Positions 2,883 to 62,176 of a stretch of 64,000 nucleotides of DNA are shown here, one piece after another. A program made the translations under genes and the position numbers. The notes below the pieces were generated by a model that made no database searches, had not been told where the DNA came from, and worked only from the letters and a program-made list of their open reading frames with translations. The stretch comes from Mesostigma viride (lineage: Eukaryota > Streptophyta > Mesostigmatophyceae > Mesostigmatales > Mesostigmataceae), in contig RPFO01000002.1 in NCBI GenBank assembly GCA_009746045.1, forward strand, positions 2,262,506-2,326,505. Reading direction: 5' to 3'. Within the stretch, counting starts at the first letter, position 1. Every line of letters starts with the position of its first letter.

Positions 2883-3587
2883 GTCGCGTTTGCGTGCCAT
2901 TTCATCCTGGACTGGTCATTACCACTACTTGGAATGCATCCACTATCAGGATAATCATGTGTGTGATATGCCACCTCCCCCCCCACTCTTTAGCTCACAA
3001 CAACTTGAGAGCAAAAAGTGAAAGAAAGGCATCTCACACAACCGAAGGAAGCCCAAAGAGGGCGTCATTCCAGGCAGCAGCAAAAAGGAAAAAAAAAAAA
3101 TCCAGCTGCTCAAAGATGCTTTTCCAGGATCAGCAACAACCTTAACATGCATGCTTTTAAAGGCTTAGCAATAACCCCTTCAATGGCTTTTTACAGGGAA
3201 AAGCCTAACCTCTTCAGATGCTTTTGAAGGCTAAGCAATAACCTCTTCCTTGTGCTTCCCTGGGTGAAGCAGGAGGAACCCCAGGCTGGCCGGACTGAAC
3301 CCATCATGGGTTGTTCGCTCGTTAACCCCCTACCCGGTAGTCTGCTTCCTTCTGTTCGAAGCCAAGACGTTGGCTTTAGTGTTTATCAACCATCAGCAGT
3401 ACAGGGAACGGCCTGGCTGACAGTTTGTAAAGGAAGTGTCTTGAGACAGATTTTAAGAAAATAGAACTAGCCAGAATTTGCTGGCTCTTGTCTTTTTCTG
3501 GCAGGCTAGTCGAGTCGTTATCCTTGACACCTGTTATAAAGCCTTTGGTTGTTGCTTCTTCTCAGCGAAACCTAGGCTTGTTGGTTC
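2883..3587 (+). other. Leader region upstream of the methyltransferase retroelement gag
   Basis: No gene is recognised here. The part from about 3311 to 3587 recurs in inverted orientation at about 32586-33320 beside a second copy of the same gag, so it belongs to the retroelement 5' region. I could not define an LTR or primer-binding site. A short motif (AAGGCTAAGCAATAACC-like) occurs twice at about 3160 and 3228. Confidence 0.4.
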
Positions 3588-4612
3588 TTGTTTTGCCCAT
3601 CGGTCAGCTGGTGCATGCCACTGACGCGAGCGCAGACTCGAGCCATGGCGGATGCAAATAGAGCAGATGCCGACACGTCCGCTCCGGGGTCGAATGGCGG
3701 GATTCCTCCTGCCGTACCCGCAGTGGGTGAGAGTCGCGACCAAGAAGCGCCGCTGAGTATGGTGGCGCTGTTCGCGCAGATGCAAGCGCAGATGCAGCAA
3801 CAGTCGCAACAGTTGCAGCAGCAACTGGCGCTGCAGATGCGGGAAGTGACCGACAGATTGGTGGCCGTAGAGGGTCGTCATCTGCAGTCCACACCATGGG
3901 ACGGGCAGGCATCGATGCCGGGCCCCAGTGGTGTTGCCGCGGAGCCGAGGGAGCGGGACCAGCCGCCAACCTCAGGTAATGCGGCGGGAAGGGCTTCGAT
4001 GGAACCGGGGTTTTTGGCTGGGTCGCTAACCCAACACGACTTGCTTGGTGAGGCGGATGGTCAGCCACGGGGCGAGTATACGCTGGCGCCCAGGCGCCTG
4101 CCTTTCGATCAAGCGCGAGACGGATTGCACGAGGAGAACGGGGCAGGGCTGGCGCGCGCGATGGACCCACGCAGGGGTGCACCAGGACGCATGCTGCCAG
4201 GCGGGGTCTCAATTCCGTTTGGGCGAGGCGGTGGGGCGATGACCGGCGGGTCGACTGCACGGTGGTCAAGTGTGCCAATCGGGCGCATTCCGCCCATGGA
4301 GGACATAACCACGCCGCTGGCTTTCCGAGTACGGGAGGCAGCACGCCCAAGCACGCTGGCGCAGGGACGCGCAGCTCAGCGACCGCCGGAGGATGCCGAT
4401 GGGGTGCAGTACCCGCAAAGGGGATGCCGATGGGGTGCAGTACCTGAAGGCGCGAAGATGCCCACCCTACCACGGGTGGACATGCGCGAGAAGTTCTCCA
4501 CAACCGGCAATCTGGCCACGCTGGCGCAGGCCTACAACGCATACAAGTCATGGATTGATCTGCAATACATGACTACGCAAGGCGCTGTAATGCATGAGTT
4601 TGTGATGAACAA
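3588..4612 (+). pseudogene. Gag N-terminal part of methyltransferase retroelement (split)
   Basis: This frame encodes the N-terminal part of a Gag-like polyprotein. It has a Gln/Met-rich stretch near residues 60-90 (probably helical) and then a low-complexity, Gly/Arg/Pro-rich region. ATG codons lie at 3588 and 3645; the second (MADANRADAD) is equally plausible as the start. Translation runs into the inserted SDR-A element at 4613 and stops there. The frame continues exactly at 11231: removing 4613-11230 leaves an uninterrupted frame with no duplicated target bases. A second, reversed copy of this gag lies at 31971-32585. There is no close family match I can name beyond retrotransposon Gag. 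Confidence 0.75.
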
Positions 4613-5088
4613 TGGTTGATCTTACGATCTGGATTCCCTGATTTGCGACTAAGGGGAGCGGAGTGCGAGTCGGTGCCGCTGCCTCATGGCTGATCTGCGA
4701 GAAATGCTCCTGGAAAGGGTGAAAGTCCCTGCAAATGACCTCTGGACTGTTTCCAAGTACTTGGATGTAGTTCAAAGTACTTCATTGGTACTACAGGGTA
4801 GTACAATCTACTTCAAACTAGTTCAAACTAGCTCAGGCTAGTAAAGATTCGTTCAGGTGTAGCACAACCTGCCTAGGAGGTGGTATGACCACCTGGGTTG
4901 AAGTAGACAGTGACTAAACGTAGTACAATGTCGAAAGAATCAGTACAAGTGGGTTCTTTGTAGTACAACTGGTCAGTGGCACCTAGGCGCCGCGCCAGTA
5001 CTGTACCGGACTTGCATTCGTCACCGTGCGCATGCAATGCAGCCAATTTATTGAGGAAGACATGGCGGCGCATGCTTTATCAGTTTTC
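4613..5088 (+). repeat. SDR-A repeat A1
   Basis: Left terminal repeat beginning TGGTTGATCTTACG and ending TTATCAGTTTTC. It matches A2 at 10553-11028. It contains an array of roughly 10-bp motifs of the CTAGTTCAAA/TACTTCAAA type (about 4755-4850), repeated GTAGTACAA motifs, and a short palindrome around GGCACCTAGGCGCC. It probably carries the promoter, although no clear TATA box is visible. Confidence 0.9.
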
Positions 5089-5178
5089 AAATTCGTTTTT
5101 CGGTTTTCTAAGCCATCTTTTGGCCGTTTTACCTCGGAATAGATCCGTTTTAAAGCTAACGACTTCCTCTTTACGAAT

Positions 5179-6920
5179 ATGATGGCTAGCGGGGATGAAA
5201 ACGCTAGCGAGACGGGGGATTTACCGCGCGGATTTGCGAGTCGTGTGGAGGAAATCTATGTGAACCATGGCAGGAACGCCTCAGCTGTCGCCTATTTTAT
5301 AGCGGCAGAACTCGGCTCTGAATACCCTAAAATATTGTTGCGTAGCTCGGAAAACAAGTTACGAAGTTTGGCAGAAAAGCTTCGGATCTTTGGGTTTGAA
5401 ATCAATGGGTATGACACTCGTGAGGAGCTGGCGCAAAATATTTCAGCCAAGGTGGCGAAAATGTTAGCACAAGGTACAACAGGCATTACAAACGATGAGG
5501 AACCGAACGGGGACTCCTCAGAGGAGGACACTGATGTCGGGGAAGCTTTGGCAGGGGCCAAAGAGGAGCAGGCGCAGGGATTTCGCCCCCCAGGTGCTAG
5601 CACAGTTGCTGGCGCACCAGGTGCCGTTTTTCCCGCCGTTTTTGGTCATATGGCGCCTGTCGTCGGAGGGGATGGCAGGAAACAGCTTGCAAATGCAGGG
5701 AGGAGCTTGGCAAACGCGGCTGGCGCTAGTTTTGGGGGAGGCGAGGGGGTGTCTGCAGTGCCACGCTCAGGCACTTTAAAAGCGGGCGCGCGCGGGGGAG
5801 GCAAGGAGGAGAAAGCAGGTCTCCCGCGCAGTGCCAAGGGGGACGGGGCGGCCGGAATGGGACTGAGCCCCGAAATGATGGCGCAGATGAATGCCCTCAT
5901 GGGGGGCTTCCAACAGCTGGGGATTGGCGGCGCCCAGGGGTTGGGAGCCGCAGTACGGGTGCCAGCACCCAGCGTGCAGGAAGGGGGCGCATGGGGGGGG
6001 CGGGGGCAGCAGGGCCCAGCCCTGCCGGGTGGACAAGCGGGCCCCATGGGTACCCGGGCACACCGACAGGCGTGGAAAGAACGCAGGGCCCAGCGTACGC
6101 TTACCCAGGGCAGATGGGTGCAGCCTGGCCTCAGCCCTACCCACCAGCGGGTACCGCGTACGGTACCTGGGTGCCAGCGGCTGGAACCCCGTACCACATG
6201 GCGCTCGCAGCAGCCCAAGGTGGGCAGAGGAAACGGGAGAGCAAGCGGTCCAAGTGCCGGGAGTGCGGGCATCGGCACTGCCGGTGCACGTCCAGCGACA
6301 GCACGAGCAGCGACTCGGAGGGGAGCGGGCGAGGGCGCGCGGGTGGCCGGGGCACAGGTGGGAGGTTGACCGACCTGCCAGTTACCCGCGGGGTCAACCT
6401 GCTCGAGTACCTGCCGGCGGGGCGGGCGCTCAGCGTGGTGTGGGACGTGGAAGACCACAAGTACCACCAGCGCACGGCCCCCAAGCACATGGAGACCGCC
6501 ATACAGGGCCACAACGGCAACATGGTGGCCTGGCTGAACGTGCAAAGGGCCCCCGTGCTGCGCCAGCAGAAGGAGGGGACGGGACTTGGGTGGGCATCCA
6601 AGGAGAGGATGGAGCTGGCCCAGAACCTGTGCCACGTCTGGGATACGCTCAACAAGGAGCTCAGTCCCAACGTGTGCAGCGAGCTGGCGGGCGTGGAGTA
6701 CCTGGCGCTCTGCGTGGAGGCTCTCCTGCTGGTGGAGACCAGCGGGTCTTGGAACGCGTCCGGGTACATGCTGCCCTACCGGCCGGCAGGGGGTGTCCGC
6801 ACGCGGGCGGCTCGACGAGCGCTGCGGGCACACAAGAAGGAGCGCGATGCGTTGGCGTCGGCGCGAGGAAAGGAGGACAAGGCGGAGGGAGGAGTGGCGG
6901 GCTCTTCCCAGAAGAAGTGA
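5179..6920 (+). CDS. SDR-A Gag-like protein (ORF1), one frame discontinuity
   Basis: This ORF1 lies between A1 and ORF2 and would supply the nucleocapsid of the element. The N-terminal part (from ATG 5179, MMASGDENAS) has a globular-looking stretch with a PRGFA motif shared with the gag at 37143. A Gly/Ala/Pro-rich linker follows, then a putative zinc-binding motif CRECGHRHCRC next to a Ser/Asp tract, and finally a conserved helical C-terminal domain ending at the stop 6918-6920. The frame changes once, by one base, in G-rich runs at about 5985-6005, so the gene is either mutated there or read by slippage. The C-terminal part matches gag copies at 22819-23666 and 38500-39061. Retroelement Gag function is inferred from position and motif, not from a named domain. 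Confidence 0.75.
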
Positions 6921-7438
6921 GAGGGCGAGGTGTATTCCCCCTCCCAGAGGTGGCCATCAAGCCCCTCGACCGCGCGCGCCTACGGTCCCGACGTAGGTAT
7001 CAGCGGGCCATGCGGCGGCGGGCCCTGCTCCTGCGCAGCGCGCGAATCGTGGATGGCCTCAACTGGTTGTGGAGGGGAGCACAGGAACCGCCTGAAACGG
7101 GTCCTGTCGGTGGCATGCGGATGGCTTTGCCCGCACCTGTTGCCCAGGAGCCCGCGGGTTGCGGTACCAGCGGGGTGTCCTTAGTGACCCCCTGCACTGC
7201 GGCCCAGCAGGCGGCCCTACAAGGGCTGGAGATTGCCGCCCAGGTCCATGAGCGCCGGCTGAGAGCCGTAGCGGCAGAGGACCTGGTGCATGACGTTGAG
7301 TCTGGGCCCTATGGGCCCGACGGGCAATATGAAATAATTGCCCCGGAGAGACTTGCGCTGCCCGCGGGCGGAGTGGCGGGCAGCGTGCCGCTGATGGACT
7401 GCCTCCCCCCCAGTGGAGGGAGGTATATGGCAATATAA
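6921..7438 (+). CDS. SDR-A ORF2 leader peptide region
   Basis: A reading frame directly after the gag stop encodes an Arg-rich start (RLRSRRRYQRAMRRRA), a conserved segment around VDGLNWLW, and a conserved block with AAQQAALQGLEIAAQVHERR. It ends at a stop just after the C-run at 7405-7411. The same leader occurs at 14041-14400, 22330-22792, 23667-24157 and 39079-39478, so it is a real part of the element. No start is certain: ATG 7009 is possible here but is not conserved in other copies. The RT frame lies -1 relative to this one, so the leader may be the N-terminus of the pol protein reached by frameshifting. Confidence 0.6.
7405..7411 (+). other. Candidate -1 slippery heptamer C CCC CCC
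   Basis: Seven cytosines lie in the leader frame as CT[C CCC CCC]AGT, the X XXY YYZ form. A -1 slip would move ribosomes into the RT frame, starting CAG TGG AGG. Seven-C versions are also at 24124-24130 and (reversed) 22332-22338; an eight-C version at 2822-2829 joins the frames directly. There is no ATG near the start of the RT frame (first in-frame ATG 7552), which fits translation by frameshift. Confidence 0.5.
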
Positions 7439-7446
7439 AAAATATT

Positions 7447-10062
7447 TTGAGGGAAGAGGCAGCGCAGCCAGGGCGTCGACGGCGAGTAACGCATGGCTGT
7501 GCGAGCGACACGGAGTACGCGCGCCTGAGCGTGCGGCTGGCGGAGACCGGGATGACAGAGTATAGCGAGGAGGAACCACCGGTCACCAACGGCCTGTTCG
7601 GCGTGCCCAAGCGCGATCCAGGGGTGGTGGACCCGTCAGCCCAGCGCCAGCGACTCATCTGCAACATGGTGCAGAGCAACGACAAGTTCCTCACCCCTGG
7701 CAGCTGTTACCTGCCAGATGTGGGGGCGGTGGCCGAGATGGCCGGGGGCGCGCCCAGCTACTCGAGTAAAACGGACCTGGAGACGTACTACTACCGCTTC
7801 TCTGTGCCAACGGAGTGGCGGAAGTGGTTCGCGCTGCCCCCAGTCTGGTCAGACGAGGTCGGCCAACCAGGGGAGCGCCGCCGGCTCTATCCCAGGTTCC
7901 GTGTTCTGGTGATGGGGTGGTCCCACTCGGTCCTGTTGGCGCAGGTGGCGCACATGCAGACCCTGTTCGGGCCGGGGAAGCTGAACCCCGGGCTGAGTGT
8001 GAGCGTCCCGATGCATCAGCTCGGGGTGCGCACAGTGCGTGAGGGAGGACGGGAGTGGATGGAGTTGGTGGGGGCCGCCGAGCTTGACTGGCAGCTGCTG
8101 CCCGAGGACCCTCCTCGGCCGGCGCAGTTGGTCATGATCGACGACCTGGGCACCACACACGCGCGCAGCGCAGCGGAGGCGAACGCGCTGCTGGACCGCG
8201 CATGCACTGAGTGCTACGCGCCAGCTGGCCTGGTGGTGAATGAGAAAAAGGTCGAGCGGGCGCGGGAGGGCCAAGCTGTGGAGATCCTGGGCATCGAGTT
8301 TCACCAAGATGGGAGCTTGTGGCCGTCGGCGAAGCGACTAGCCCTCCTCGTCCATGACACTGAGGCGGTGCTGGCCCGGGGACGAGCAAGCTACCATGAG
8401 CTGGCCTCCCTACTGGGACGCTGGGTATGGATCCAACTGCTTCGCAGGAGTCTGCTAAGCATCTGGTTCCATGCCTACAGGATGCTCCACCAAGTGCTGG
8501 CCCTCCGCAAGGGAGGACGCTTCCAACTCTGGGCAAGTGTGCGCCGGGAGCTCTGGGCGGCTGTCTGCCTGGCTCCCCTGGTGCATGCGCAGCGCAACCA
8601 GCCGCTGGACACCACCGTCGTGGCCAGTGACGCGTCGAGCCGGGGCTCCGGTGTGGTGTACGCCCGTCTGGCAGAGGCAGACGTGAAAGCTTTGTCCAAC
8701 TGCCGTGAGATGAAGGGGTGGAAGACTCTGTGTGTCGGGTCGGAAGAGGTCGGTGTGGAGCGAACGGGGGAGAGGGAACATCGGGCGGTGGCGACCGCCC
8801 GCTGGCGTGTGGCGGTGAAACACCGGTGGAGGGACGCGGGTGCGCACATCAATGAGAAAGAGGCGCGCGCAGCCGTGCAGAGCCTGGAGTGGGGGCTGCG
8901 CACGCGGGCCCGGTGGGGGCGACGGCACGTACGGCTGGTGGATAGCTCCGCCGTTCTGGGCGCACTGGTGAAGGGGCGGTCATCATCTTACCGCCTCAAC
9001 ACGTGGTGCCGCCGCGCTGCCGCCCTGGGCTGTGCCAGCAACACCAGGTACCACTGGGTGTACATCCGCTCGGAGCGAAACCCCGCGGACGCGCCCAGCC
9101 GGGGCCGGTGGGTGCGGGACCTTACCGCCGATGGCGATGTGGAGAGTAACCCGGGGCCGGGAGGGCGGCAGGAGCTACTGGAGAGCACCGTGCTGCCCGC
9201 GACCCTGCGCAGCTACCATCGCGCAGTGATCGCGTACCTTCTTTGGGCTGAGCCCTATGGTGCTGTACCGCCGGAGGAAGCGGAGAGCGTGTTCTGCGAG
9301 TGGCTCGTGTCTGTCTACGAGGATGGAGGGGGAGCAGGGCGTTCCATGTGCATGAGGGCGCTGTGTGGGCTGCAACTGTACTACCCCAGCCAAGTGCAGG
9401 GGTGGCGCGAGGCCCGCCGACTCCTGTACGGGTGGCAGCGACGCGTGCAAACCCATAGCCCCAATCCGGTGCCGTGGGAGCTGCTCTACCTGGTGGTGCA
9501 GATCCTCCGCTGGCAGGGGGCGCCCATGGCAGCAGCCGTGTGCGTCATCACTTTCCAGCAATACCTGCGCATCGGGGAGGCCTTCAAGCTCCGAGTGGGG
9601 GACGTGGCGCTGCGCGGCGACCGTCGCCTGGGGCAGCGAGGCCTGGGCGCGCTGCTTCTGCGGGATCCCAAGACAGCCAAGGGGGGTGCACAGGCGGTGG
9701 TGGTGCAGGACCCCCTCTCGCTGTACGTGCTCGAGCGCCTGTGCGCTGGGCGGGAGCCCGAGGAGCCCTTGTTTGGGAGCCTCAACTACAGCCAGTTCTC
9801 TCGTCGGTGGCACGCGGCGTGGGATGTTCTGGGCCTGCGGGGGATGTTTCCGCCCTACTCCATGCGACATGGTGGGGCAACGTACGACTACCTGCAGGGC
9901 GTTTCACTCCCAGACATCCAGAAGCGCGGGCGTTGGCGCCAGTTCAAGTCGGTGGACCACTACGTGGGCCTGCACCGTGCTCTAGCGGTGCAAGTGCCGC
10001 GGTGGGTGTGGTTGCTGGCTGAGGAGTTCCCCCCCGCTCAGTGGAGTTCACACTGGCAGTAG
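7447..10062 (+). CDS. SDR-A polyprotein: RT - RNase H - 2A - tyrosine recombinase
   Basis: The frame encodes 871 residues counted from 7447, which is a TTG codon; true entry is probably upstream by frameshift. RT: motif B-like MGWSHSVL, catalytic MIDDL (Asp232/Asp233) and LGIEF. RNase H: Asp395 in ASDASSRGSG, Glu in NEKEA (470-472), Asp499 and Asp548 in NPADAPSR, giving a full D-E-D-D set. A 2A motif follows at 563-571. The C-terminal part is a DIRS/Ngaro-type tyrosine recombinase with Arg708 (YLRIGEAF), MRHGGAT at 806-812, GRW at 828-830 and the probable nucleophile Tyr839. The enzymes copy the RNA and integrate the cDNA circle. The copy looks intact and could be active, apart from the gag discontinuity. 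No methyltransferase domain of the DIRS1 type is present. Confidence 0.92.
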   Translation: MREEAAQPGRRRRVTHGCASDTEYARLSVRLAETGMTEYSEEEPPVTNGLFGVPKRDPGVVDPSAQRQRLICNMVQSNDKFLTPGSCYLPDVGAVAEMAGGAPSYSSKTDLETYYYRFSVPTEWRKWFALPPVWSDEVGQPGERRRLYPRFRVLVMGWSHSVLLAQVAHMQTLFGPGKLNPGLSVSVPMHQLGVRTVREGGREWMELVGAAELDWQLLPEDPPRPAQLVMIDDLGTTHARSAAEANALLDRACTECYAPAGLVVNEKKVERAREGQAVEILGIEFHQDGSLWPSAKRLALLVHDTEAVLARGRASYHELASLLGRWVWIQLLRRSLLSIWFHAYRMLHQVLALRKGGRFQLWASVRRELWAAVCLAPLVHAQRNQPLDTTVVASDASSRGSGVVYARLAEADVKALSNCREMKGWKTLCVGSEEVGVERTGEREHRAVATARWRVAVKHRWRDAGAHINEKEARAAVQSLEWGLRTRARWGRRHVRLVDSSAVLGALVKGRSSSYRLNTWCRRAAALGCASNTRYHWVYIRSERNPADAPSRGRWVRDLTADGDVESNPGPGGRQELLESTVLPATLRSYHRAVIAYLLWAEPYGAVPPEEAESVFCEWLVSVYEDGGGAGRSMCMRALCGLQLYYPSQVQGWREARRLLYGWQRRVQTHSPNPVPWELLYLVVQILRWQGAPMAAAVCVITFQQYLRIGEAFKLRVGDVALRGDRRLGQRGLGALLLRDPKTAKGGAQAVVVQDPLSLYVLERLCAGREPEEPLFGSLNYSQFSRRWHAAWDVLGLRGMFPPYSMRHGGATYDYLQGVSLPDIQKRGRWRQFKSVDHYVGLHRALAVQVPRWVWLLAEEFPPAQWSSHWQ
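9133..9159 (+). other. 2A ribosome-skipping motif GDVESNPGP
   Basis: Codons read GDVESNPGP, a perfect match to the 2A core D[VI]ExNPGP. It lies between RNase H (NPADAPSR at 545-552) and the recombinase. Skipping would release RT-RNase H ending in glycine 570 and a 301-residue recombinase starting with proline 571. The motif is intact in reversed copies at 15698-15724 and 17491-17517, and mutated at 26738-26764. Confidence 0.85.
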
Positions 10063-10108
10063 CCAGTGTGGGGATGCGCCTGCCCCGGTCTAGGCCGGGG
10101 GGGCGCAG

Positions 10109-10115
10109 TATAAAA
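10109..10115 (+). promoter_or_regulatory. TATA-like box upstream of SDR-A hairpins
   Basis: TATAAAA lies 26-32 bases before the first hairpin (10141), downstream of the ORF2 stop. The same box is at 27713-27719, at the same spacing from the first hairpin. A GC-rich inverted repeat (about 10083-10103) precedes it. A start site at the hairpins is inferred. Confidence 0.4.
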
Positions 10116-10140
10116 CGATGCAGCTCCGTTGGAGGAGTCG

Positions 10141-10350
10141 GCAGGGCGCACTCCAGTGGACACGCTGGGGCCCTGCTGGTTTTGGGCGTCGCGCCATCAT
10201 CCTGATTTCCGGTTTGGCTCAACTTCGACCGTATCCTGCCTTGGACAGAGCCGGCGGGGCGCACTCTAGTGGATACACTAGGGCTCTGCGGGTACCTGCG
10301 TTGACAGGTGCAGGGGAGGCGCACTCTAGCAGCCACGCTAGGGCTTCCCC
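10141..10350 (+). other. Three covarying hairpins of SDR-A
   Basis: Three stem-loops follow ORF2: 10141-10176 (GCAGGGC/GCCCTGC), 10246-10288 (CAGAGCC/GGCTCTG) and 10313-10350 (GGGGAGGC/GCTTCCCC). Each has a GCACT segment on the 5' side and an inner stem: CCAGT/GCTGG, CTAGT/ACTAG, CTAGC/GCTAG. Stems differ between hairpins but stay complementary. Likely a structured RNA or cis-acting DNA element; function unknown. Confidence 0.75.
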
Positions 10351-10398
10351 CTCTACAACCACTCCAGATGCGGCCGGGGACGGCCAGGTTGGAGATGC

Positions 10399-10552
10399 GG
10401 GTGTTATATGGTGGCAGCCGCCTGGGACTTGCGCACAATTTGCCAGTCTCTCGGTCTACCAAGGCCTGCAAGCGGCTTAAGCATATAATTTTGCAATAAA
10501 CAAGTTCTGGTGCCTTCTCAAACAAAGTGAACCTGAAAGCATGCACAGAGGA
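10399..10552 (+). repeat. SDR-A repeat B1
   Basis: This 154-bp repeat matches B2 at 11077-11230 and ends GCACAGAGGA, directly against A2. It contains AATAAA at 10495-10500, a possible polyadenylation signal repeated in B2 at 11173-11178. A homologous B repeat in SDR-C (52410-52578, minus) shares the AATAAACAAGTTCTGGTGCC segment. Confidence 0.9.
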
Positions 10553-11028
10553 TGGTTGATCTTACGATCTGGATTCCCTGATTTGCGACTAAGGGGAGCG
10601 GAGTGCGAGTCGGTGCCGCTGCCTCATGGCTGATCTGCGAGAAATGCTCCTGGAAAGGGTGAAAGTCCCTGCAAATGACCTCTGGACTGTTTCCAAGTAC
10701 TTGGATGTAGTTCAAAGTACTTCATTGGTACTACAGGGTAGTACAATCTACTTCAAACTAGTTCAAACTAGCTCAGGCTAGTAAAGATTCGTTCAGGTGT
10801 AGCACAACCTGCCTAGGAGGTGGTATGACCACCTGGGTTGAAGTAGACAGTGACTAAACGTAGTACAATGTCGAAAGAATCAGTACAAGTGGGTTCTTTG
10901 TAGTACAACTGGTCAGTGGCACCTAGGCGCCGCGCCAGTACTGTACCGGACTTGCATTCGTCACCGTGCGCATGCAATGCAGCCAATTTATTGAGGAAGA
11001 CATGGCGGCGCATGCTTTATCAGTTTTC
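10553..11028 (+). repeat. SDR-A repeat A2
   Basis: Internal copy of the terminal A repeat, 476 bp, matching A1 at 4613-5088 without differences that I could see. It starts at the B1 boundary, so the B1/A2 junction reproduces the joined ends of a circular element. Confidence 0.92.
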
Positions 11029-11043
11029 CCCACCCACCCACCC
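11028..11043 (+). other. C-rich G4/i-motif tract between A2 and B2 (SDR-A)
   Basis: CCCCACCCACCCACCC; the other strand is four G-runs with one-base loops, a strong G-quadruplex pattern. A TTTG repeat (about 11046-11069) follows before B2. Equivalent tracts sit at the same place in SDR-B, SDR-C and SDR-D. Confidence 0.85.
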
Positions 11044-11076
11044 TCTTTTGTTTGTTTGTTTGTTTGTTGTCTCTGG

Positions 11077-11230
11077 GGGTGTTATATGGTGGCAGCCGCC
11101 TGGGACTTGCGCACAATTTGCCAGTCTCTCGGTCTACCAAGGCCTGCAAGCGGCTTAAGCATATAATTTTGCAATAAACAAGTTCTGGTGCCTTCTCAAA
11201 CAAAGTGAACCTGAAAGCATGCACAGAGGA
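11077..11230 (+). repeat. SDR-A repeat B2 (right end)
   Basis: Right terminal repeat, 154 bp, matching B1. Its last bases GCACAGAGGA abut the interrupted retroelement gag, which resumes at 11231 in frame with the part ending at 4612. Confidence 0.9.
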
Positions 11231-14024
11231 CATGCATTTCTTCTTTCACGGCCTTACGCTGAGGCGAGTGGCTAGGCTGGTGGAGCAGTGGAGAGAGGTC
11301 TCGCTGTACACGCGTCACACGGACGTGTGGTTCGGCTTCGACGGGCGTGGCCAGCCCGACTATGACAACATCATGTATGGTGTCGACCCTGCCGAGGAAC
11401 TGTGGGGCCTCCTTCGCCAGGAATACCCGGTGGAGACCATCAAGGCAGAGCGTGAGTGGCGCAGTTTCAAGATAGCCGAGGGTGAAACCCCGGAGCAATC
11501 TTACGAGCGCCTCATGGAGTTCGCCAGCGAAGTGGAGGACTGGTCCGAAAAGCTGGCGTGTCAGAAATGGCTGCAAGCGCTAGGCTCCAAGGAGATGGAG
11601 CTGCCCACGCCGCCCAACGGCCAGCCGTGGCGATTGCGGTCACTGTGCATTGAGGTCAGGGCCATGATGCGACGACACGCGCAAGGCCGGATCTCGGTAA
11701 GCACGGTGGTGGCCGAGCTGCAGGCCAAGGTCGACGCGCTGACCAAGGCCAAGTCGGGTGAGTCGTCTGCCACAAGACAAGCGCGCCCGCAAGGCGGCCA
11801 CGGTGCTAGCAGGAACCAAGGGGGGTCTCGCAACGCCTCATCGCATGATGCAACCCAGGGTAACGCAGCTGGCGGCAACAAGGACGCTGCCGCTCCGCCG
11901 ACGCGAGCTGGGGGGGGCACGTCCTCACAGACGGGTAGGACGGATGCGCGCAAATCGGGCTGCTTCCTGTGCGGTCAGGATGGGCACATCAAACGTGATT
12001 GTCCCAAGGCGTGTAAGAAGTCACACCCAGCAACGGTCCGAACCCATCTGGCGGGGCAGTGCCCAGCGCCGGGGGTGCACTTTGCGGACGTAGAGGACAA
12101 GAAGGTGGACGCGGGGGTGGTCATCATTCAGCCGACGGGCGAGGCGGGGGGGCGTGAAAGGGAGGATGGGGGATCGCAGGTTCAATACAGGGACGAGGAC
12201 TTCTGGCGGCCAGCCGACGTGATGGCGTTGGACATCCACGCAGTTGGCGCGCGCGGGAAGCAAGCACGTGCACCACCGTCGTTTCAGGTGGGGCAGCCAA
12301 GTGAGACTGTGGGGCAGTTGCCTCAGTCCTTTCGCATGGCTCCCGCTCGGACCGGCTCCACCCTGGAACACGACAATCCTGCTGGGGCAGAGCAGCGGCG
12401 CAGGTTGTTGCCATTATACCCTATGCCGTCGGTCGTGGACACGCCTGCATACACTCCCCGGCAATTGGTCGAGTGGTTCGGTCAGCGGGCCGTGGAGGTG
12501 CTCGGGTCGCATGCGTCAGAGGTACAGCGGTACGCTGACACAATGGACGCCCGTAGGTTGCACAACGCCGAAACAGCCACATTTGTCGGGCATCGCCCTG
12601 CATCGGCTTCGGTAATCGTGGGTCATGTCGCTCATGGTGTCTTGGACAACGCGCAGCGGGCGTGCGTAGTGCCTAGGGCACCCACTGTCACCTCATATCC
12701 GGATGGCGAGCCAGCAATGGCGTTTCAGGCGCAGGGGCACGGGGAGCCCCTGAGCAACGTGGTCTACAGTACTGACCATGAATTGGTCGTGAAACTGGAC
12801 AGCGGGGCCCAGCCACTCGTTATCAGTGCTCGGCTGGCCCAGTTGCTCAACCTAACCAGGGAGAATGGCGGGCTGCAGGACAGTCATGTGTCCGTGGCGG
12901 GCTGGCAGGGCCCTGCCGCTAAACCCTTTGCCATGACTGCGGTCCAGGTAATGGTCATCCTCAACCCGCTCAGGCCATCCGACATGGCCTGCATCCCTGT
13001 GAATGCCCTTGTGACCGAGCAGTCATCGTATGACGTGCTGGTCGGCATGGAGGTCATGTTTCCCATGCGGCTCGAGGTACGCATGTGGGAAGGCCGCGCG
13101 GTGTACATCGTTGACAGAGACGGTGACGCCATGCGCCAAGCAAGCATCCCGGTGAGCTGCTACAGCTCGGACAATGGGGCAGTGCGTGTCTCGACGGTCA
13201 ACCGGGTCGAGGCTGGCTCGCACGACGCGGTGGTGGAGGTACGGATGGGGGAGGTCACGGCAGCTGGGGGGGCTGTGCGTGATAAGCATCGGCCGTGCAT
13301 CCCAACAGCGCTGGTGGGACGGGCCTCATTGCACAGCACGTGGGCGGCGCGACAGCAGCCGCAAGCGCGGCAGGCCCTTTTGCGTCAGAACGTCACCAAC
13401 GCGGTGCGGCAGCAACAACTCGGCTCTCATCTCCCGCGGCAATCGCAGTCCCAAGTGGCTGTCGCGACAACGGAAGGTAACTTCTGTGCCGATGTTGTGG
13501 CAGAGTCGCGGGTCTTGTCCGAGGGGGTTGTATTGCTAGAATTGTTTGCTGGGATGGGAGGGGGGCTGGCTGGCTTTCTCGCTGCAGGCGGTACGTGCCA
13601 CACGTTGATCGCCGTAGAGCCGTCTCCTACCGCTCGGGCAGTGTATAGGCATCACTGTGCCCAGTTGTCTGCCCTGTATCCATCCCAGTTTCCTCCGTCT
13701 GCGTGGACAGATCCCTTTGGGGAGTGCCCTCAGGATATCCGTGCCATTGGGGAGGTTCATGTGCGAGGCCTTTTGAGGCGGCACAAGAGGATAGACCTCG
13801 TCCTCGCGGGCTGGGAATGTCAAGGGCTGAGTCAGGCCGGCGTAGGACGCGGGCTTGCGGATCCTAGGAGCGGGTTGTTTTGGGATCTGCTTCGAGTCGT
13901 TGGACTCTTGCAGCAGCTGCAGGACCAGCCACTAGCGTATCTTTTTGAGAACGTGGTGGCTGACGACAGCCCTCACGAGGTAGTGAGGAAGGTGCTGGGT
14001 AACTTCTTGAGTGCACGGACGTAA
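11231..14024 (+). pseudogene. Gag-protease-C5 cytosine methyltransferase retroelement polyprotein, 3' truncated
   Basis: This continues the frame broken at 4612. A Gag helical domain comes first, then a CCHC zinc knuckle (CFLCGQDGHIKRDC, 11961-12002), an aspartic-protease-like LDSGA (12795-12809), and a C5 cytosine DNA methyltransferase domain. Motif I is LELFAGMGGG (13536-13565); motif IV reads GWECQGLS with the catalytic Cys at 13818-13820; motif V-like DPRSGLFWDLL follows; motif VI is FENVV (13944-13958). The usual Pro before the catalytic Cys is Glu here. The frame ends at 14024, where a reversed SDR-A fragment begins, so the C-terminal target-recognition region and any RT/integrase are missing. 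Cytosine methyltransferases captured by Ty3 and Copia retrotransposons are known in charophyte algae and dinoflagellates. Methylation of element DNA is inferred, not shown. Confidence 0.85.
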
Positions 14025-14648: not shown

Positions 14649-15433
14649 CATCCCGTTTCGTTTAAGTGGCCAGCCGGAGCGGCTGCTTAGGTTTTAGCGG
14701 GCAAGTGTTCGAAGCGCGTCATTGGTGAATTACTCGGGAACTTGGGTTTCCCCGCGAAACTCCAACCGCACGTTCAGATTTCCAAATCTCAAGTAAAGTT
14801 CGGCGCAACTTTCTGAACGGGGGCAGTTGACGAGCAGCATTCCTCCGGACGAATGAATTGCGTTCCATACTTGCGCAAAATTTTGAAAGGTAGCTTGCGT
14901 GCAGCCCTACTAAAATTTGCGCGCACGTTCAGATTTCCAAATCTCAAGTAAATTTCGGCGGAACATTCTGAACGGGGGTAGTTGGCGGGCAGCGTTCCTC
15001 CAGACGAATGAAATGCGTTCCATACTAGCGCAAAATTTTGAAAGGTAGCTTGCGTGCAGCCCTACTAAAATTTGCGCAAAGTGTGGGACTGAAAATTCGT
15101 AACGGAAACTTTTTGGTAGTTGCCGTCACTTCCTCTTGTGCAAACGTGTGGGAGTGAAAATTCGTAACGGAAACTTTTTGGTAGTTGCCGTCACTTCATT
15201 TTGCGCGAGTGTTGGGCTGAAAATTCGTAACGGAAACTTTTTGGTAGTTGCCGTCACTTCCTTTGGTTCGACTGAAAATTCGCTGAAATTCGCTGAATTC
15301 GTACCGTAGCCTAATTTTTAGTACCTCGAAGTGACGGGGCACCTAAAAATTTGCCCACAAGTACACTTGGCAGCGCGCTCACTGGGAAAAATTGTACAGC
15401 CGCTCCGGCGGGCCACTTGAACGAATTGTAATG
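14649..15433. mobile_element. TIR element E, 785-bp deletion derivative
   Basis: Imperfect terminal inverted repeats of about 37 bp (outer ends CATC.../CATTAC..., inner core AAGTGGCC then GCCGGAGCGGCTG) bound this element. It lies inside a recombinase fragment with at most one duplicated base. Subterminal tandem repeats are present: about 155 bp twice (14760-15070) and about 64 bp three times (15080-15270). A longer copy is at 34971-36409 in opposite orientation, and this one lacks its middle. No transposase is seen, so it is nonautonomous and of uncertain superfamily. Confidence 0.75.
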
Positions 15434-15807
15434 AGGAGCCGGCGGGCCTCGCGCCACCCCTGCACTTGGCTGGGGTAGTACAGTTGCAGCCCACACAGCG
15501 CCCTCATGCACATGGAACGCCCTGCTCCCCCTCCATCCTCGTAGATAGACACGAGCCACTCGCAGAACACGCTCTCCGCTTCCTCCGGCGGTACAGCACC
15601 ATAGGGCTCAGCCCACAGGAGGTACGCGATCACTGCGCGATGGTAGCTGCAGGGTCGCGGGCAGCACGGTGCTCTCCAGCAGTTCCTGCCGCCCTCCCGG
15701 CCCCGGGTTACTCTCCACATCGCCATCGGCGGTAAGGTCCCGCACCCACCGGCCCCGGCTGGGCGCGTCAGCGGGGTTTCGCTCCGAGCGGATGTACACC
15801 TGGGCAG
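15434..15807 (-). pseudogene. SDR-A recombinase N-terminus with intact 2A motif
   Basis: The minus strand encodes the end of RNase H (ERNPADAPSR), the 2A motif GDVESNPGP (15698-15724) and the first part of the recombinase. A two-base deletion near 15650 (absent from the duplicate at 17436) breaks the frame shortly after the 2A. The fragment is cut by SDR-B at 15808. Confidence 0.8.
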
Positions 15808-17114
15808 TCCCTATGCATGTCTCAACTCGTTCACTCCATCACTGAGGGCTCCAGACATTATTTTTTACAAAATACGTTTACGCACAAGAGACTCTTGGAC
15901 CAAAGTCGCATAATTGGTGAATAAAGCATCTGCAGGCCCCCCAGCCAGCTGATGCTGCCATCTCACTTCCCTCAGGGTGGGTTGGGTGGGCTAATAAAAA
16001 CGAATACCAGCACAGGCACACCTCGGCTGGTTATATGCCAGCACTTTTTCTCAGACTTGGGCCGGCGGCGGCCCAGGTCCTTCTAATTCGGGTCGAAACA
16101 CAATTCCGTGACCCATACAATATTCGTACACCATGCGAAGTGGCAGCGTACTTGCCCACTGTGGCGGATGCAAGTCCGGTACACCTGGTTTTGGCGCCAA
16201 AAGCACCCTTGGCCAGTTGTACTACAAGGAACCCATCCCTACTAATTCTTTTGACATTGTACTACGTTTAGTCTTGGTCTACTACACCCCAGTAGGTTCG
16301 TTCACCTCCTGAGCGTCCAGTGCTACGCCGAAGCACGTCAGCACTGGTTTGAACTAGAATGAACTAGTTTGAAGTAGATTGAAGTAGACTGTACTACCCT
16401 GTAGGCCAAGTGAAGTACTTGGAACTACATCCAAGTACTTAGAACTAGTTTACAAGTTACTCGTACGGACTTACACCCTATTAGAGGGCAGATCTCGTAC
16501 CACCACACTGGCGCCCCTTATTAAATTCCAGGGCCCTTATAAATTGTGACTACTGCCCCTTATAAAAGACCAGGGCCTATTATAAAATATTAAATGCTCT
16601 ATTTATTTTTTATATGTGCTGTCACCCAGCGGCGTCCCTCGCCTCCTTCGCTCCCTCCGCCCCGACAAATCAGGGAATCCAGATCGAGGGAGATCAACCA
16701 TCCCTATGCATGTCTCAACTCGTTCACTCCATCACTGAGGGCTCCAGACATTATTTTTTACAAAATACGTTTACGCACAAGAGACTCTTGGACCAAAGTC
16801 GCATAATTGGTGAATAAAGCATCTGCAGGCCCCCCAAGCCAGCTGATGCTGCCATCTCCCTTCCCGCTTCCCCCAGCCTGGCCATTCTGGCCGTGGAGGA
16901 CCCGTCACCAATAGTGAAGGCCTAGCATGCCTGCTAGTGTGCCCCTCACTTACTGGTCGCGGGGAAGCCTGTCACCAACAGTGGGGCCCCAGCTTGTCTG
17001 CTGGAGTGCGCCCCACTAGCGAAGTCTCAAACGATGCCTTGATCCCCCTTGGATAGGAGAGAACAGCGTCCAACCAAAGGTACGGTCAATCAATCCCCCA
17101 CACCTTTCCCCCCT
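15808..17114 (-). mobile_element. SDR-B 3' portion (duplicated unit)
   Basis: Reading leftward: hairpins (16985-17020 and 16919-16954), B1 (16701-16865), A2 (15991-16700), G-rich tract (15975-15990), B2 (15808-15972). It is a second copy of the right end of the SDR-B at 17601-20905, produced by the tandem duplication described at 15324-18909, and is not an independent insertion. Confidence 0.8.
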
Positions 17115-17223
17115 CCTCGAAGTGACGGGGCACCTAAAAATTTGCCCACAAGTACACTTGGCAGCGCGCTCACTGGGAAAAATTGTACAGCCGCTCCGGC
17201 GGGCCACTTGAACGAATTGTAAT
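17115..17223. mobile_element. TIR element E, end fragment
   Basis: This is the duplicate of 15324-15433: the last part of TIR element E including its terminal inverted repeat, joined on the left to SDR-B internal sequence by the tandem duplication. Confidence 0.75.
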
Positions 17224-17600
17224 GAGGAGCCGGCGGGCCTCGCGCCACCCCTGCACTTGGCTGGGGTAGTACAGTTGCAGCCCACACAGCGCCCTCATGC
17301 ACATGGAACGCCCTGCTCCCCCTCCATCCTCGTAGACAGACACGAGCCACTCGCAGAACACGCTCTCCGCTTCCTCCGGCGGTACAGCACCATAGGGCTC
17401 AGCCCACAGGAGGTACGCGATCACTGCGCGATGGTAGCTGCGCAGGGTCGCGGGCAGCACGGTGCTCTCCAGCAGTTCCTGCCGCCCTCCCGGCCCCGGG
17501 TTACTCTCCACATCGCCATCGGCGGTAAGGTCCCGCACCCACCGGCCCCGGCTGGGCGCGTCAGCGGGGTTTCGCTCCGAGCGGATGTACACCTGGGCAG
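17224..17600 (-). pseudogene. SDR-A recombinase N-terminus with intact 2A motif (duplicate)
   Basis: This is the duplicate of 15434-15807, but without the two-base deletion, so the frame stays open from the RNase H end through the 2A motif (17491-17517, GDVESNPGP) into the recombinase. It is truncated by TIR element E on one side and by SDR-B on the other. Confidence 0.8.
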
Positions 17601-17769
17601 TCCCTATGCATGTCTCAACTCGTTCACTCCATCACTGAGGGCTCCAGACATTATTTTTTACAAAATACGTTTTACGCACAAGAGACTCTTGGACCAAAGT
17701 CGCATAATTGGTGAATAAAGCATCTGCAGGCCCCCCCAGCCAGCTGATGCTGCCATCTCACTTCCCTCA

Positions 17770-17785
17770 GGGTGGGTTGGGTGGG
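17770..17785 (-). other. G4 tract of SDR-B
   Basis: GGGTGGGTTGGGTGGG as written on the plus strand lies between A2 and B2. It is the same tract as 1055-1070, 25717-25732 and 61226-61241 in other SDR-B copies. Confidence 0.8.
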
Positions 17786-18708
17786 CTAATAAAAACGAAT
17801 ACCAGCACAGGCACACCTCGGCTGGTTATATGCCAGCACTTTTTCTCAGACTTGGGCCGGCGGCGGCCCAGGTCCTTCTAATTCGGGTCGAAACACAATT
17901 CCGTGACCCATACAATATTCGTACACCATGCGAAGTGGCAGCGTACTTGCCCACTGTGGCGGATGCAAGTCCGGTACACCTGGTTTTGGCGCCAAAAGCA
18001 CCCTTGGCCAGTTGTACTACAAGGAACCCATCCCTACTAATTCTTTTGACATTGTACTACGTTTAGTCTTGGTCTACTACACCCCAGTAGGTTCGTTCAC
18101 CTCCTGAGCGTCCAGTGCTACGCCGAAGCACGTCAGCACTGGTTTGAACTAGAATGAACTAGTTTGAAGTAGATTGAAGTAGACTGTACTACCCTGTAGG
18201 CCAAGTGAAGTACTTGGAACTACATCCAAGTACTTAGAACTAGTTTACAAGTTACTCGTACGGACTTACACCCTATTAGAGGGCAGATCTCGTACCACCA
18301 CACTGGCGCCCCTTATTAAATTCCAGGGCCCTTATAAATTGTGACTACTGCCCCTTATAAAAGACCAGGGCCTATTATAAAATATTAAATGCTCTATTTA
18401 TTTTTTATATGTGCTGTCACCCAGCGGCGTCCCTCGCCTCCTTCGCTCCCTCCGCCCCGACAAATCAGGGAATCCAGATCGAGGGAGATCAACCATCCCT
18501 ATGCATGTCTCAACTCGTTCACTCCATCACTGAGGGCTCCAGACATTATTTTTTACAAAATACGTTTACGCACAAGAGACTCTTGGACCAAAGTCGCATA
18601 ATTGGTGAATAAAGCATCTGCAGGCCCCCCCAGCCAGCTGATGCTGCCATCTCACTTCCCGCTTCCCCCAGCCTGGCCATTCTGGCCGTGGAGGACCCGT
18701 CACCAATA

Positions 18709-18811
18709 GTGAAGGCCTAGCATGCCTGCTAGAGTGCCCCTCACTTACTGGTCGCGGGGAAGCCTGTCACCAACAGTGGGGCCCCAGCTTGTCTGCTGGA
18801 GTGCGCCCCAC
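18709..18811 (-). other. Hairpin pair of SDR-B
   Basis: Minus-strand hairpin 1 is 18811-18776 and hairpin 2 is 18744-18709, with the same stems, bulge and six-base loops as 30-132. In hairpin 2 the bulge is CACTC, against CACAC at the window start. Confidence 0.7.
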
Positions 18812-23666: not shown

Positions 23667-24157
23667 AAGTTCCGGCCGTCCAGCCCCTCGACCGGTCCCG
23701 CCTGCGCTCACGACGCAGGCTGCAGCGAGCCACGCGGCGGCGGGCACGCTTGCTGCTCATGGTCCGGCTCGTGGAAGGCCTGAACTGGATGTGGGGGGGG
23801 ACACGGGAACCGCCTGTGGGGGCGGCCGGGTGTGGGGCGGGGCCAGCAATGGCCACGCCTGCCGGCGGGCCCCCAGGGCGCGGCACTAGCGGGGCGACGG
23901 CAACGGCTCCCTGCACCGCTGCCCAGCAGGCGGCCCTACAAGGGCTGGAGATTGCCGCCCAGGTCCATGAGCGCCGGCTGAGAGCCGTAGCGGCAGAGGA
24001 CCTGGTGCATGACGTTGAGTCTGGGCCCTATGGGCCCGACGGGCAATATGAAATGATTGTCCCAGAGAGACTTGCGCTGCCCGCGGGCGGAGTGGCGGGC
24101 AGCGTGCCGCTGATGGACTGCCTCCCCCCCAGTGGAGGGAGGTATATGGCAACATAA
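23667..24157 (+). CDS. SDR-A ORF2 leader, second plus-strand copy
   Basis: Same leader as 6921-7438 but of subfamily 2 (MVRLVEGLNWMW instead of RIVDGLNWLW). It runs to a stop just after the seven-C run at 24124-24130. ATG 23758 is a possible start. The gag that should precede it is absent; the upstream sequence is the opposite-strand gag. Confidence 0.6.
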
Positions 24158-24165
24158 AAAATATT

Positions 24166-25900: not shown

Positions 25901-27667
25901 CTGGGCATCGAGTTTCACCAAGATGGGAGCTTGTGGCCGTCGGCGAAGCGACTGGCCCTCCTGGTCCACGACACCGAGGCGGTGCTGGCCCGGGGACATG
26001 CAAGCTACCATGAGTTGGCCTCCCTACTGGGACGCTGGGTATGGATCCAGCTGCTGCGCAGGAGTCTGCTAAGCACCTGGTTCCACGCCTACAGGATGCT
26101 CCACCAAGTGCTGGCCCTCCGCAAGGGAGGACGCTTCCAACTCTGGGCAAGTGTGCGCCGGGAGCTCTGGGCGGCTGTCTGCCTGGCTCCCCTGGTGCAT
26201 GCGCAGCGCAACCAGCCACTGGACACCACCGTCGTGGCCAGTGAGGCGTCGAGCCGGGGCTCCGGTGTGATGTACGCCCGTCTGGCAGAGGCAGACGTGA
26301 AGGCTTTGTCCAACTGCCGCGAAATGAAGGGGTGGAAGACTCTGTGTGTCGGGGCGGAAGAGGTCGGTGTGGAGCGAACGGGGGAGAGGGAACATCGGGC
26401 GGTGGCGACCGCCAGCTGGCGTGTGGCGGTGAAACACCGGTGTAGGGACGCGGGGGCGCACATCAATGAGAAAGAGGCGCGCGCAGCCGTGCAGAGCCTG
26501 GAGTGGGGGCTACGCACGCGGGCGCGGTGGGGGCGACGGCACGTACGGCTGGTGGATAACACCGCCGTTCTAGGCGCAGTGGTGAAGGGGCGGTCATCAT
26601 CTTACCGCCTCAACACGTGGTGCCGCCGCGCTGCCGCCCTGGGCAACACCAGGTACCACTGGGTGTACATCCGCTCGGAGCGAAACCCCGCTGACGCGCC
26701 CAGCCGGGGCCGGTGGGTGCGGGACCTTACCGCCGATGGCGATGTGGAGAGTAACCTGGGTCCGGGAGGGCGGCAGGAACTGCTGGAGAGCACCGTGCTG
26801 CCCGCGACCCTGCGCAGCTACCATCGCGCAGTGATCGCGTACCTCCTGTGGGCTGAGCCCTATGGTGCTGTACCGCCGGAGGAAGCGGAGAGCGTGTTCT
26901 GCGAGTGGCTCGTGTCTGTCTACGAGGATGGAGGGGGAGCAGGGGGTTCCATGTGCATGAGGGCGCTGTGTGGGCTGCAACTGTACTACCCCAGCCAAGT
27001 GCAGGGGTGGCGCGAGGCCCGCCGGCTCCTGTACGGGTGGCAGCGACGCGTGCAAACGCATAGCCCCAATCCGGTGCCGTGGGAGCTGCTCTACCTGGTG
27101 GTGCAGATCCTCCGCTGGCAGGGGGCGCCCATGGCAGCAGCCGTGTGCGTCATCACTTTCCAGCAATACCTGCGCATCGGGGAGGCCTTCAAGCTCCGAG
27201 TGGGGGACGTGGCACTGCGTGGCGACTGTCGCCTGGAGCAGCGGGGACTGGGCGCGCTTCTTCTGCGGGATCCCAAGACAGCCAAGGGGGGTGCACAGGC
27301 GGTGGTGGTGCAGGATCCCCTCTCGCTGTACGTGCTCGAGCGCCTGTGCGCTGGGCGGGAGCCCGAGGAGCCCTTGTTTGGGAGCCTCAACTACAGCCAG
27401 TTCTCTCGTCGGTGGCACGCGGCGTGGGATGTTCTGGGCCTGCGGGGGATGTTTCCGCCCTACTCCATGCGACATGGTGGGGCAACGTACGACTACCTGC
27501 AGGGCGTTTCACTCCCAGACATCCAGAAGCGCGGGCGTTGGCGCCAGTTCAAGTCGGTGGACCACTACGTGGGCCTGCACCGTGCTCTAGCGGTGCAAGT
27601 GCCGCGGTGGGTGTGGTTGCTGGCTGAAGAGTTCCCCCCCGCTCAGTGGAGTTCACACTGGCAGTAG
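25901..27667 (+). pseudogene. SDR-A RT C-terminus, RNase H, mutated 2A, recombinase
   Basis: This is the continuation of 24166-25008. It has the RT end (LGIEF), RNase H (EASSRGSG, with Asp replaced by Glu at the first catalytic position: ASEASS instead of ASDASS), VDNTAVLG and NPADAPSR, then GDVESNLGP (26738-26764) and a complete recombinase with YLRIGEAF, MRHGGAT, GRW and HYVG. A three-residue deletion precedes NTRYHW. The two halves together give 869 residues, against 871 in the intact copy. The RNase H and 2A substitutions suggest the copy is inactive. Confidence 0.88.
26738..26764 (+). other. Mutated 2A motif (NPGP to NLGP)
   Basis: CCG is changed to CTG at 26756-26758, giving GDVESNLGP. 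Loss of the first proline of NPGP is known to abolish 2A skipping, so this copy would make an uncleaved RT-recombinase fusion. Confidence 0.8.
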
Positions 27668-39478: not shown

Positions 39479-40573
39479 CATCAGCTCGGGGTGCGCACAG
39501 TGCGTGAGGGAGGACGGGAGTGGATGGAGTTGGTGGGGGCCGCCGAACTTGACTGGCAGCTGCTGCCCGAGGACCCTCCTCGGCCGGCGCAGTTGGTCAT
39601 GATCGACGACCTGGGCACCACACACGCGCGCAGCGCAGCGGAGGCGAACGCGCTGCTGGACCGCGCATGCACCGAGTGCTACGCGCCAGCTGGCCTGGTG
39701 GTGAATGAGAAAAAGGTCGAGCGGGCGCGGGAAGGTCAAGCTGTGGAGATCCTGGGCATCGAGTTTCACCAAGATGGGAGCTTGTGGCCGTCGGCGAAGC
39801 GACTGGCCCTCCTGGTCCACGACACCGAGGCGGTGCTGGCCCAGGGACGTGCAAGCTACCATGAGTTGGCCTCCCTACTGGGACGCTGGGTATGGATCCA
39901 GCTGCTGCGCAGGAGTCTGCTAAGCACCTGGTTCCACGCCTACAGGATGCTCCACCAAGTGCTGGCCCTCCGCAAGGGAGGACGCTTCCAACTCTGGGCA
40001 AGTGTGCGCCGGGAGCTCTGGGCGGCTGTCTGCCTGGCTCCCCTGGTGCATGCGCAGCGCAACCAGCCACTGGACACCACCGTCGTGGCCAGTGACGCGT
40101 CGAGCCGGGGCTCCGGTGTGGTGTACGCCCGTCTGGCAGAGGCAGACGTGAAGGCTTTGTCCAACTGCCGCGAAATGAAGGGGTGGAAGACTCTGTGTGT
40201 CGGGTCGGAAGAGGTCGGTGTGGAGCGAACGATCAGAGGATGTGGCGGTGAAACACCGGTGGAGGGACTGCGGGGGCGCACATCAATGAGAAGGAGGCGC
40301 GCGCAGCCGTGCAGAGCCTGGAGTGGGGGCTGCGCACGCGGGCGCGGTGGGGGCGACGGCACGTACGGCTGGTGGATAACACCACCGTGGTGGGCGCAGT
40401 GGTGAAGGGGCGGTCATCATCTTACCGCCTCAACACGTGGTGCCGCCGCGCTGCCGCCCTGGGCTGTGTCAGCAGCACCAGGTACCACAAGGTGTACATC
40501 CGCTCGGAGCGGAACCCCGCTGACGCGCCCAGCCGGGGCCGGTGGGTGCGGGACCTGACCTCCGATGGAGATG
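39479..40573 (+). pseudogene. SDR-A RT/RNase H fragment
   Basis: Begins at the RT segment HQLGVRTVREGG and contains MIDDL, LGIEF and the RNase H ASDASSRGSG. At about 40232 a short replacement removes about 50 bases and shifts the frame. RNase H continues in another frame through VDNT and NPADAPSR. It ends at the start of the 2A region (DGDV, 40573), where an SDR-B terminus begins. Confidence 0.8.
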
Positions 40574-40676
40574 TTCTATTTATTTTTATACGTGCTTTCA
40601 CCCAGCGGCGTCCCTTGCCTCCTTTGCTCCCTCCGCCCTGACAAATCAGGGAATCCAGATCGAGGGAGATCAACCA
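40574..40676 (-). mobile_element. SDR-B terminus fragment
   Basis: The first 103 bases of an SDR-B A repeat in reverse, with the TGGTTGATCTCCC end at 40676. It is flanked by LINE sequence on one side and SDR-A on the other. Confidence 0.75.

Positions 40677-61543: not shown

Positions 61544-62176
<633 letters not shown>

Follow-up and report, generated by a model that had tools for sequence, protein, structure and literature searches.

A putative 2A (StopGo) peptide in the pol frame of a tyrosine-recombinase retrotransposon with split direct repeats

Organisation of the element and its enzyme domains

The analysed stretch of DNA, a window of 64 kb, contains a whole and recent copy of a tyrosine-recombinase (YR) retrotransposon, whose features are collected in Table 1 together with pol fragments of further copies. 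Its repeats follow the split direct order A1 - ORFs - B1 A2 B2 of the Ngaro/PAT type, which has been reported for Ngaro, PAT-like and VIPER elements (PMC6681497). The insertion lies inside the gag-like frame of another retroelement, and when the flanks are joined, this host-element frame is open at two of seven offsets (-2 and +1). No empty copy of the insertion site was found within the window. Both flanks carry ACA, which is compatible with zero or three duplicated target bases; because of this, a 3-bp duplication is indistinguishable from none, and a sure absence of target-site duplication was rejected. Short non-autonomous repeats sharing the A terminus of the element are scattered over the window. 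Scans of the window for tRNAs and against Rfam returned nothing, as did Pfam searches of five further ORFs.

The gag-like region, which was named by its position and showed no family match, is spread over two frames in this copy, and in a related copy (37352-39061) it forms one open frame (37% identity, E 1.5e-32). The preliminary description of the locus had spoken of an intact polyprotein, which holds for pol but not for the gag region. A heptamer of cytosines marks a candidate -1 shift into the pol frame; downstream RNA structure was considered as support for this site and rejected (z -0.57).

Searching the whole pol protein against Pfam at E 0.01 gave the phage integrase family as the sole match. 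For the C-terminal 301 residues, PF00589 was matched with E 5e-5, under the curated cut-off (23.6 vs 27.1 bits), and a three-row YR profile matched Cre recombinase with E 0.0071. The catalytic-type residues were located by alignment to a contig of a Rickettsiales MAG (L001), which is taken to be eukaryotic contamination of the MAG and whose RT-RNase H and YR are each 27% identical to those of the window element. In the YR, R746, K780, R845, W868 and Y877 (pol numbering) are invariant in this alignment, and the box-II His (H..R) of L001 corresponds to Tyr842. In two-row alignments, the RT acids D148, D270 and D271 and the RNase H residues D433, E508/E510, D537 and D586 are likewise invariant, with the caution that a shorter alignment shifts the first RNase H Asp of L001. 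RVT_1 was matched by L001 with E 3e-9 and reached E 0.26, which is not significant, for the window protein alone. A methyltransferase or methylase match was found neither in pol as a whole nor between RNase H and YR, and the gag-like frames, the middle frame and pol gave no match to a protease family. By its architecture, the element is a YR retrotransposon, as it combines split direct repeats with residues of all three enzymes, RT, RNase H and YR. The cautions attached to the target site, to Tyr842 and to the alignments leave the reading of the 2A untouched, because they do not bear on it.

Table 1. Coordinates of the element, its predicted products and further copies within the window
Feature	Position	Strand	Remarks
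Whole YR retrotransposon copy	4612..11230	+	split direct repeats; recent
Split direct repeat A1	4612..5088	+	477 nt, 100% identical to 10552-11028
Gag-like region	5143..6920	+	two overlapping frames, 5143-6369 and 5730-6920; named by position
pol ORF (RT, RNase H, putative 2A, tyrosine recombinase)	7333..10062	+	909 codons; catalytic-type residues by alignment to L001
C CCC CCC heptamer, candidate -1 shift into pol frame	7405..7411	+	in frame of ORF 5891-7438
RT-RNase H part, predicted upstream product ending SNPG	7411..9156	+	assumed start, at the codon right behind the candidate -1 shift
Putative 2A/StopGo stretch WVRDLTADGDVESNPGP	9109..9159	+	pol residues 593-609; motif 4 of PMC12846837
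Tyrosine recombinase, 301 residues from Pro (predicted product)	9157..10062	+	PF00589, Cre profile match, L001 alignment
Split direct repeat B1	10396..10552	+	157 nt, 99% identical to 11074-11230
Split direct repeat A2	10552..11028	+	477 nt, 100% identical to A1
Split direct repeat B2	11074..11230	+	157 nt, 99% identical to B1
pol fragment, GDVESNPGP intact at 15698-15724	15433..15800	-	duplicate of 17224..17593
pol fragment, GDVESNPGP intact at 17491-17517	17224..17593	-	pattern match, pol comparison
3' part of second element copy, NLGP for NPGP	25901..27664	+	pol comparison
pol fragment, linker GRWVRDLTSDGDV	40270..40575	+	another repeat cuts the linker after GDV

The 2A-like peptide and its upstream context

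The peptide GDVESNPGP is encoded at 9133-9159 (+) as residues 601-609 and contains the core (D/G/C/N)(V/I)ExNPGP in frame. The perfect 2A core proposed for this position is thus borne out by its in-frame location within the open pol ORF. The predicted skipped bond is Gly608-Pro609, between nucleotides 9156 and 9157, and a recombinase starting at Pro609 would comprise 301 residues. As the last catalytic-type Asp of RNase H is residue 586, the motif starts right behind the RNase H domain; the core begins 16 residues past this Asp and the YR comes next. All RNase H residues named above (D433 to D586) precede the core and all YR residues (R746 to Y877) follow it, in agreement with the proposed location between the two enzymes.

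At the DNA level, a pattern for GD, one codon with T in the middle and ExNPGP has three matches in the window, at 9133-9158 (+), 15699-15724 (-) and 17492-17517 (-); these match coordinates omit the final base of the last Pro codon, and the 27-nt coordinates are the correct ones. The same pattern had no match in 100 dinucleotide-preserving shuffles of the window. Based on the composition of pol itself, D[VI]ExNPGP is expected 1.3e-6 times in its 909 residues, and across the six reading frames of the entire 64 kb, NPGP is confined to 9133-9159 and the two duplicate copies.

The most telling evidence, which was absent from the argument of the preliminary description, lies upstream of this core. 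From 1,900 sequences representing clusters of viral StopGo, Li et al. 2026 retained six upstream motifs, with 28% of the sequences left unclassified (PMC12846837). The text of that survey gives motif 4 as DLTxDG, set in the longer signature WV(R/K)DLTx[acidic]G, whose Gly is at p11; it goes along with D at p12 and S at p15, residues reported for motifs 2, 4 and 6. Residues 593-609 of the window element read WVRDLTADG-DVESNPGP and, compared by eye with the survey's text rather than with its motif matrices, agree with motif 4 at every position given there. By composition, a chance match of the upstream stretch, the nine residues before the core, amounts to 1.7e-10 per site. By the same text-based comparison, the upstream context thus carries the signature of a known 2A class. 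In reticulocyte lysate, a motif-4 sequence reached an activity of almost 100% (PMC12846837), a figure obtained in rabbit lysate that may not hold for the host of this element. When characteristic residues were mutated in the tested motifs, activity was nearly lost in almost every case (PMC12846837 section 10).

It is barely conceivable that the peptide is an ordinary inter-domain linker that resembles a 2A by chance. Exact DNA matches to GD[VI]ExNPGP do occur at two loci of viral contigs (L002, L003), where the frames look unrelated by eye and which we take as chance background. However, a DNA pattern for motifs 1 and 4 had no locus in the viral contigs, and in the window element the core, the upstream motif, p15 and the position are all concordant, against the above chance values for the core in pol and for the upstream stretch per site.

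Further copies in the window and selection on the pol frame

The reference pol (7333-10062) was set against 11 other stretches of the window. Since eight of these are at least 96% identical to it, conservation among the copies speaks to recent copies and not to long times. The upstream motif is kept in all five readable copies (reference included), with one A-to-S change at a free position, and NPGP is kept in three of the four copies that reach the core, two of these three belonging to one tandem duplication. This duplication (1781 nt at 99.4%) contains the fragments at 15.4 and 17.2 kb; it bears out the earlier remark that the two further intact cores are duplicates of each other, and the pair was rejected as independent support. 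The free-position change (DLTSDG) is found in the fragment at 40270-40575, whose linker also carries two silent changes. Neither this fragment nor the copy with NLGP figured in the preliminary description. In the copy with NLGP, the 5' part is apparently 24052-25032, split off by a repeat insertion of ~0.87 kb. The oldest copy (52.2-53.9 kb) is decayed: its linker is homologous (score 126.5, compared to a maximum of 67.5 in 200 shuffles), and it was left out of the motif and core counts as its frame and core are unreadable. For the same reason, we rejected this copy as proof of an old 2A.

Compared with the reference, dN/dS was 0.07-0.21 for the five larger copies (one with an internal stop codon), 0 and 0.06 for the two short duplicated fragments, 0.21, 0.34 and 0.45 for three short fragments, and 0.37 for the decayed copy. 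Nonsynonymous changes were in deficit in eight of eight binomial tests against neutrality (P 5e-14 to 0.0014), which omit the decayed copy and the three short fragments and are non-independent comparisons with a common reference and, in part, from the same copy. For instance, the YR of the second copy has 3 nonsynonymous changes out of 16 (P 4e-6), and the RT-RNase H of another copy has 9 out of 44 (P 5e-14). The frame that contains the 2A-like peptide was under purifying selection while these copies were active. The linker alone holds too few changes for a selection test, and what points to constraint on the putative 2A itself is its agreement with the outside motif.

The copies also bear on the possibility that the 2A is a relic, inherited from an ancestor and now unneeded or non-working in this host. 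Such a history would fit the NLGP of one copy and the unreadable core of the oldest one. With its dN/dS of 0.16 in pol, the NLGP copy, a recent one, suggests either that the loss of 2A activity may be tolerated temporarily or that the core changed after insertion. We nevertheless regard a relic as quite improbable, given that the copy at 4612-11230 has kept all positions and is fresh, with its A repeats 100% and its B repeats 99% identical, and that pol is under purifying selection.

Proposed function and comparison with known systems

In viral 2As, it is established that the ribosome frees the upstream chain and resumes at Pro without forming the peptide bond (structure: PMC12846837). For the window element, a YR retrotransposon with split direct repeats, we consider it highly probable that a working 2A (StopGo) parts its pol frame, with ribosome skipping deduced from the sequence. 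Inside the exit tunnel, the nascent chain WVRDLTADGDVESNPG would prevent the Gly608-Pro609 bond from forming, whereupon the RT-RNase H protein would be released and the same ribosome would go on to produce a separate tyrosine recombinase of 301 residues that begins with proline. One frame would in this way yield both enzymes in near-equal amounts without a protease, and the recombinase would be free to act on cDNA. Because no protease family was found, co-translational separation appears to be the simplest route to two enzymes from one frame. The release of a recombinase with an initial proline, already suggested in the preliminary description, is supported by the architecture of the element and by the match to an active 2A class over both core and upstream stretch, from which activity is presumed. 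We infer that host ribosomes skip at Gly608-Pro609 and that the separation matters for transposition.

Skipping might also be part-time. A leaky 2A would give a fused RT-RNase H-YR besides the separate enzymes, and the fusion could be packaged or could act on cDNA. Partial 2As with a biological use are known, including a case from sea urchin (PMC12846837 section 14; PMC4981915), and Ngaro elements with pol and YR in one frame are described in fungi (PMC3783388); since such one-frame RT-RNase H and YR proteins exist, a fused protein may be tolerable. Every listed position, however, fits the motif class with a reported activity of almost 100%, and we judge leakiness unlikely, though it is a variant of the working 2A preferred here, so that our confidence in the one overlaps with that in the other.

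A wider proposal, to which we give somewhat less than even credence, is that YR retrotransposons form a further class of retroelements recoding by 2A. In this view, the border of RNase H and YR would have acquired a motif-4 2A, either through exchange with an RNA virus or because the same 17 residues evolved convergently, and the recombinase set free could also serve, in trans, the short non-autonomous repeats that share the A terminus. A working 2A in this element would widen the known range of 2A, beyond RNA viruses and non-LTR elements, to an order of retroelements described as having no protease (PMC3783388). How YR elements with fused frames obtain separate enzymes becomes a directly testable question in this element. 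The match to a motif class of RNA viruses further leads one to ask whether modules of 17 residues are passed between viruses and retroelements, or whether they arise repeatedly since few solutions fit the exit tunnel. As StopGo is described as almost absent from plant viruses (PMC12846837), the finding would gain added interest if the host is a green alga.

The preliminary description knew of no 2A in DIRS/PAT-like elements. This agrees with our search of the open literature, where no report of a 2A in tyrosine-recombinase or DIRS elements was found; the two papers likeliest to say otherwise lie outside its coverage, namely Rao et al. 2025 (Cell Reports 44:115822), which reportedly surveys the 2As of eukaryotes and viruses, and Odon et al. 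2013, which is said to deal with retrotransposon 2As. Broader literature searches contained none among the matches listed. In the main text of PMC12846837, the words recombinase, DIRS and retroelement do not occur, and retrotransposon appears in a reference title only. That YR elements were previously not known to use a 2A is accordingly put forward as an unproven claim.

Relatives of the element were sought in several sequence collections. Among 31 candidate stretches of genome contigs, one relative was confirmed (L001), in which no 2A was seen. In viral contigs, none of the candidates was confirmed (RNase H-2A-YR 0/6, RT 0/5, YR profile 0/37). Using tblastn at E 1e-3, plasmids gave no match and phages gave one match to a XerC-like integrase. 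L001 encodes RT-RNase H (1353-2921) and YR (3027-4610) in separate ORFs, whereas the window element has them in one frame, and the listed translations of L001 lack the NPGP that is present in the pol of the window.

To our knowledge, non-LTR elements have neither a YR nor split direct repeats. What they have in common with the window element is a 2A in a retrotransposon frame, as described for the APE-type L1Tc (Odon et al. 2013 and Heras et al. 2006, described in PMC4981915). Among YR elements, PAT, TOC and kangaroo also carry split direct repeats (PMC3266345), but they are described as the sister group of DIRS1-like elements, whose pol includes a methyltransferase, whereas the YR of the window element directly follows RNase H. 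A methyltransferase between RNase H and YR is described as absent in Ngaro and VIPER (PMC3266345). Ngaro combines RT-RNase H and YR without it, as does the window element, where 16 residues lead from Asp586 to the core and the YR comes next, pointing to Ngaro rather than PAT. In fungal Ngaro, the YR may share the frame of RT-RNase H, as here, with the mode of separation left unstated in that account (PMC3783388 section 15); overlapping frames are the alternative arrangement in other elements (PMC6681497, PMC3266345). The Ngaro descriptions available to us mention no 2A, unlike what we propose for the window element, and the likeness to Ngaro is one of description and not of a tree. With motif 4 of RNA viruses, as characterised in the text of PMC12846837, the window element shares both the signature WV(R/K)DLTx[acidic]G and what comes next, namely D at p12, V, E, S at p15 and NPGP; there, the motif lies in the ORFs of RNA viruses, whereas here it lies in the pol of a YR retrotransposon.

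Duplication and possible exchange among element copies

The gag-like proteins encoded at 5730-6920 and 37352-39061 share only 37% identity, yet the pol genes that accompany them are 93-97% identical, and this mismatch between the two coding regions points to recombination between element families. The pol fragments bearing the 2A motif sit inside a tandem duplication (see table). The decayed copy at 52200-53900 differs from the reference element by numerous short insertions, besides substitutions. Outside the window, an exact 2A core (TGDIESNPGP) is encoded at ~3593-3618 of locus L003, in a long ORF of an IMG/VR viral contig, and was taken as a chance occurrence.

Features of the window discussed in this section
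Feature	Position	Strand	Remarks
Tandem duplication, ~1.78 kb	15324-17100 and 17115-18895		99.4% identity
Short repeats, ~0.7-0.9 kb	345-1238, 15808-16701, 17601-18496, 20196-20906, 25032-25900, 58124-58810, 60512-61409, 28630-29285		96-98% similarity
C CCC CCC heptamer	7405-7411	+	in frame of ORF 5891-7438
Flanking retroelement frame hosting the YR element	3576-4611 and 11231-14024		CCHC knuckle, weak aspartyl-protease-like region, C-5 cytosine DNA methylase

Short repeats, probable non-autonomous elements

Where the start of a short repeat is readable, it consists of the ~35 bases that open repeat A, and the far end of the single repeat aligned there, without a control, is similar to the B end. 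The short repeats are likely non-autonomous split-repeat elements, which the recombinase of the YR element could mobilise in trans. In the pol copy at 40270-40575, the 2A codons are interrupted by a piece that has a repeat-A-type start and ends at 40677 (minus strand). A trinucleotide-type repeat of ~0.7 kb lies within 61433-62371, visible as long single-amino-acid runs in several frames.

Candidate shift into pol, and the host retroelement

The position of the heptamer would suit a -1 shift from the upstream ORF into the pol frame, making it a candidate shift site. This stretch recurs in the element copy at 22410-20905; RNA structure 3' of the heptamer was not above shuffles (z -0.57).

In the retroelement that received the insertion, the aspartyl-protease-like region is weak. 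With its C-5 cytosine DNA methylase, this retroelement recalls the DNMT-carrying retrotransposons reported from Klebsormidium and Symbiodinium (PMC5890265).
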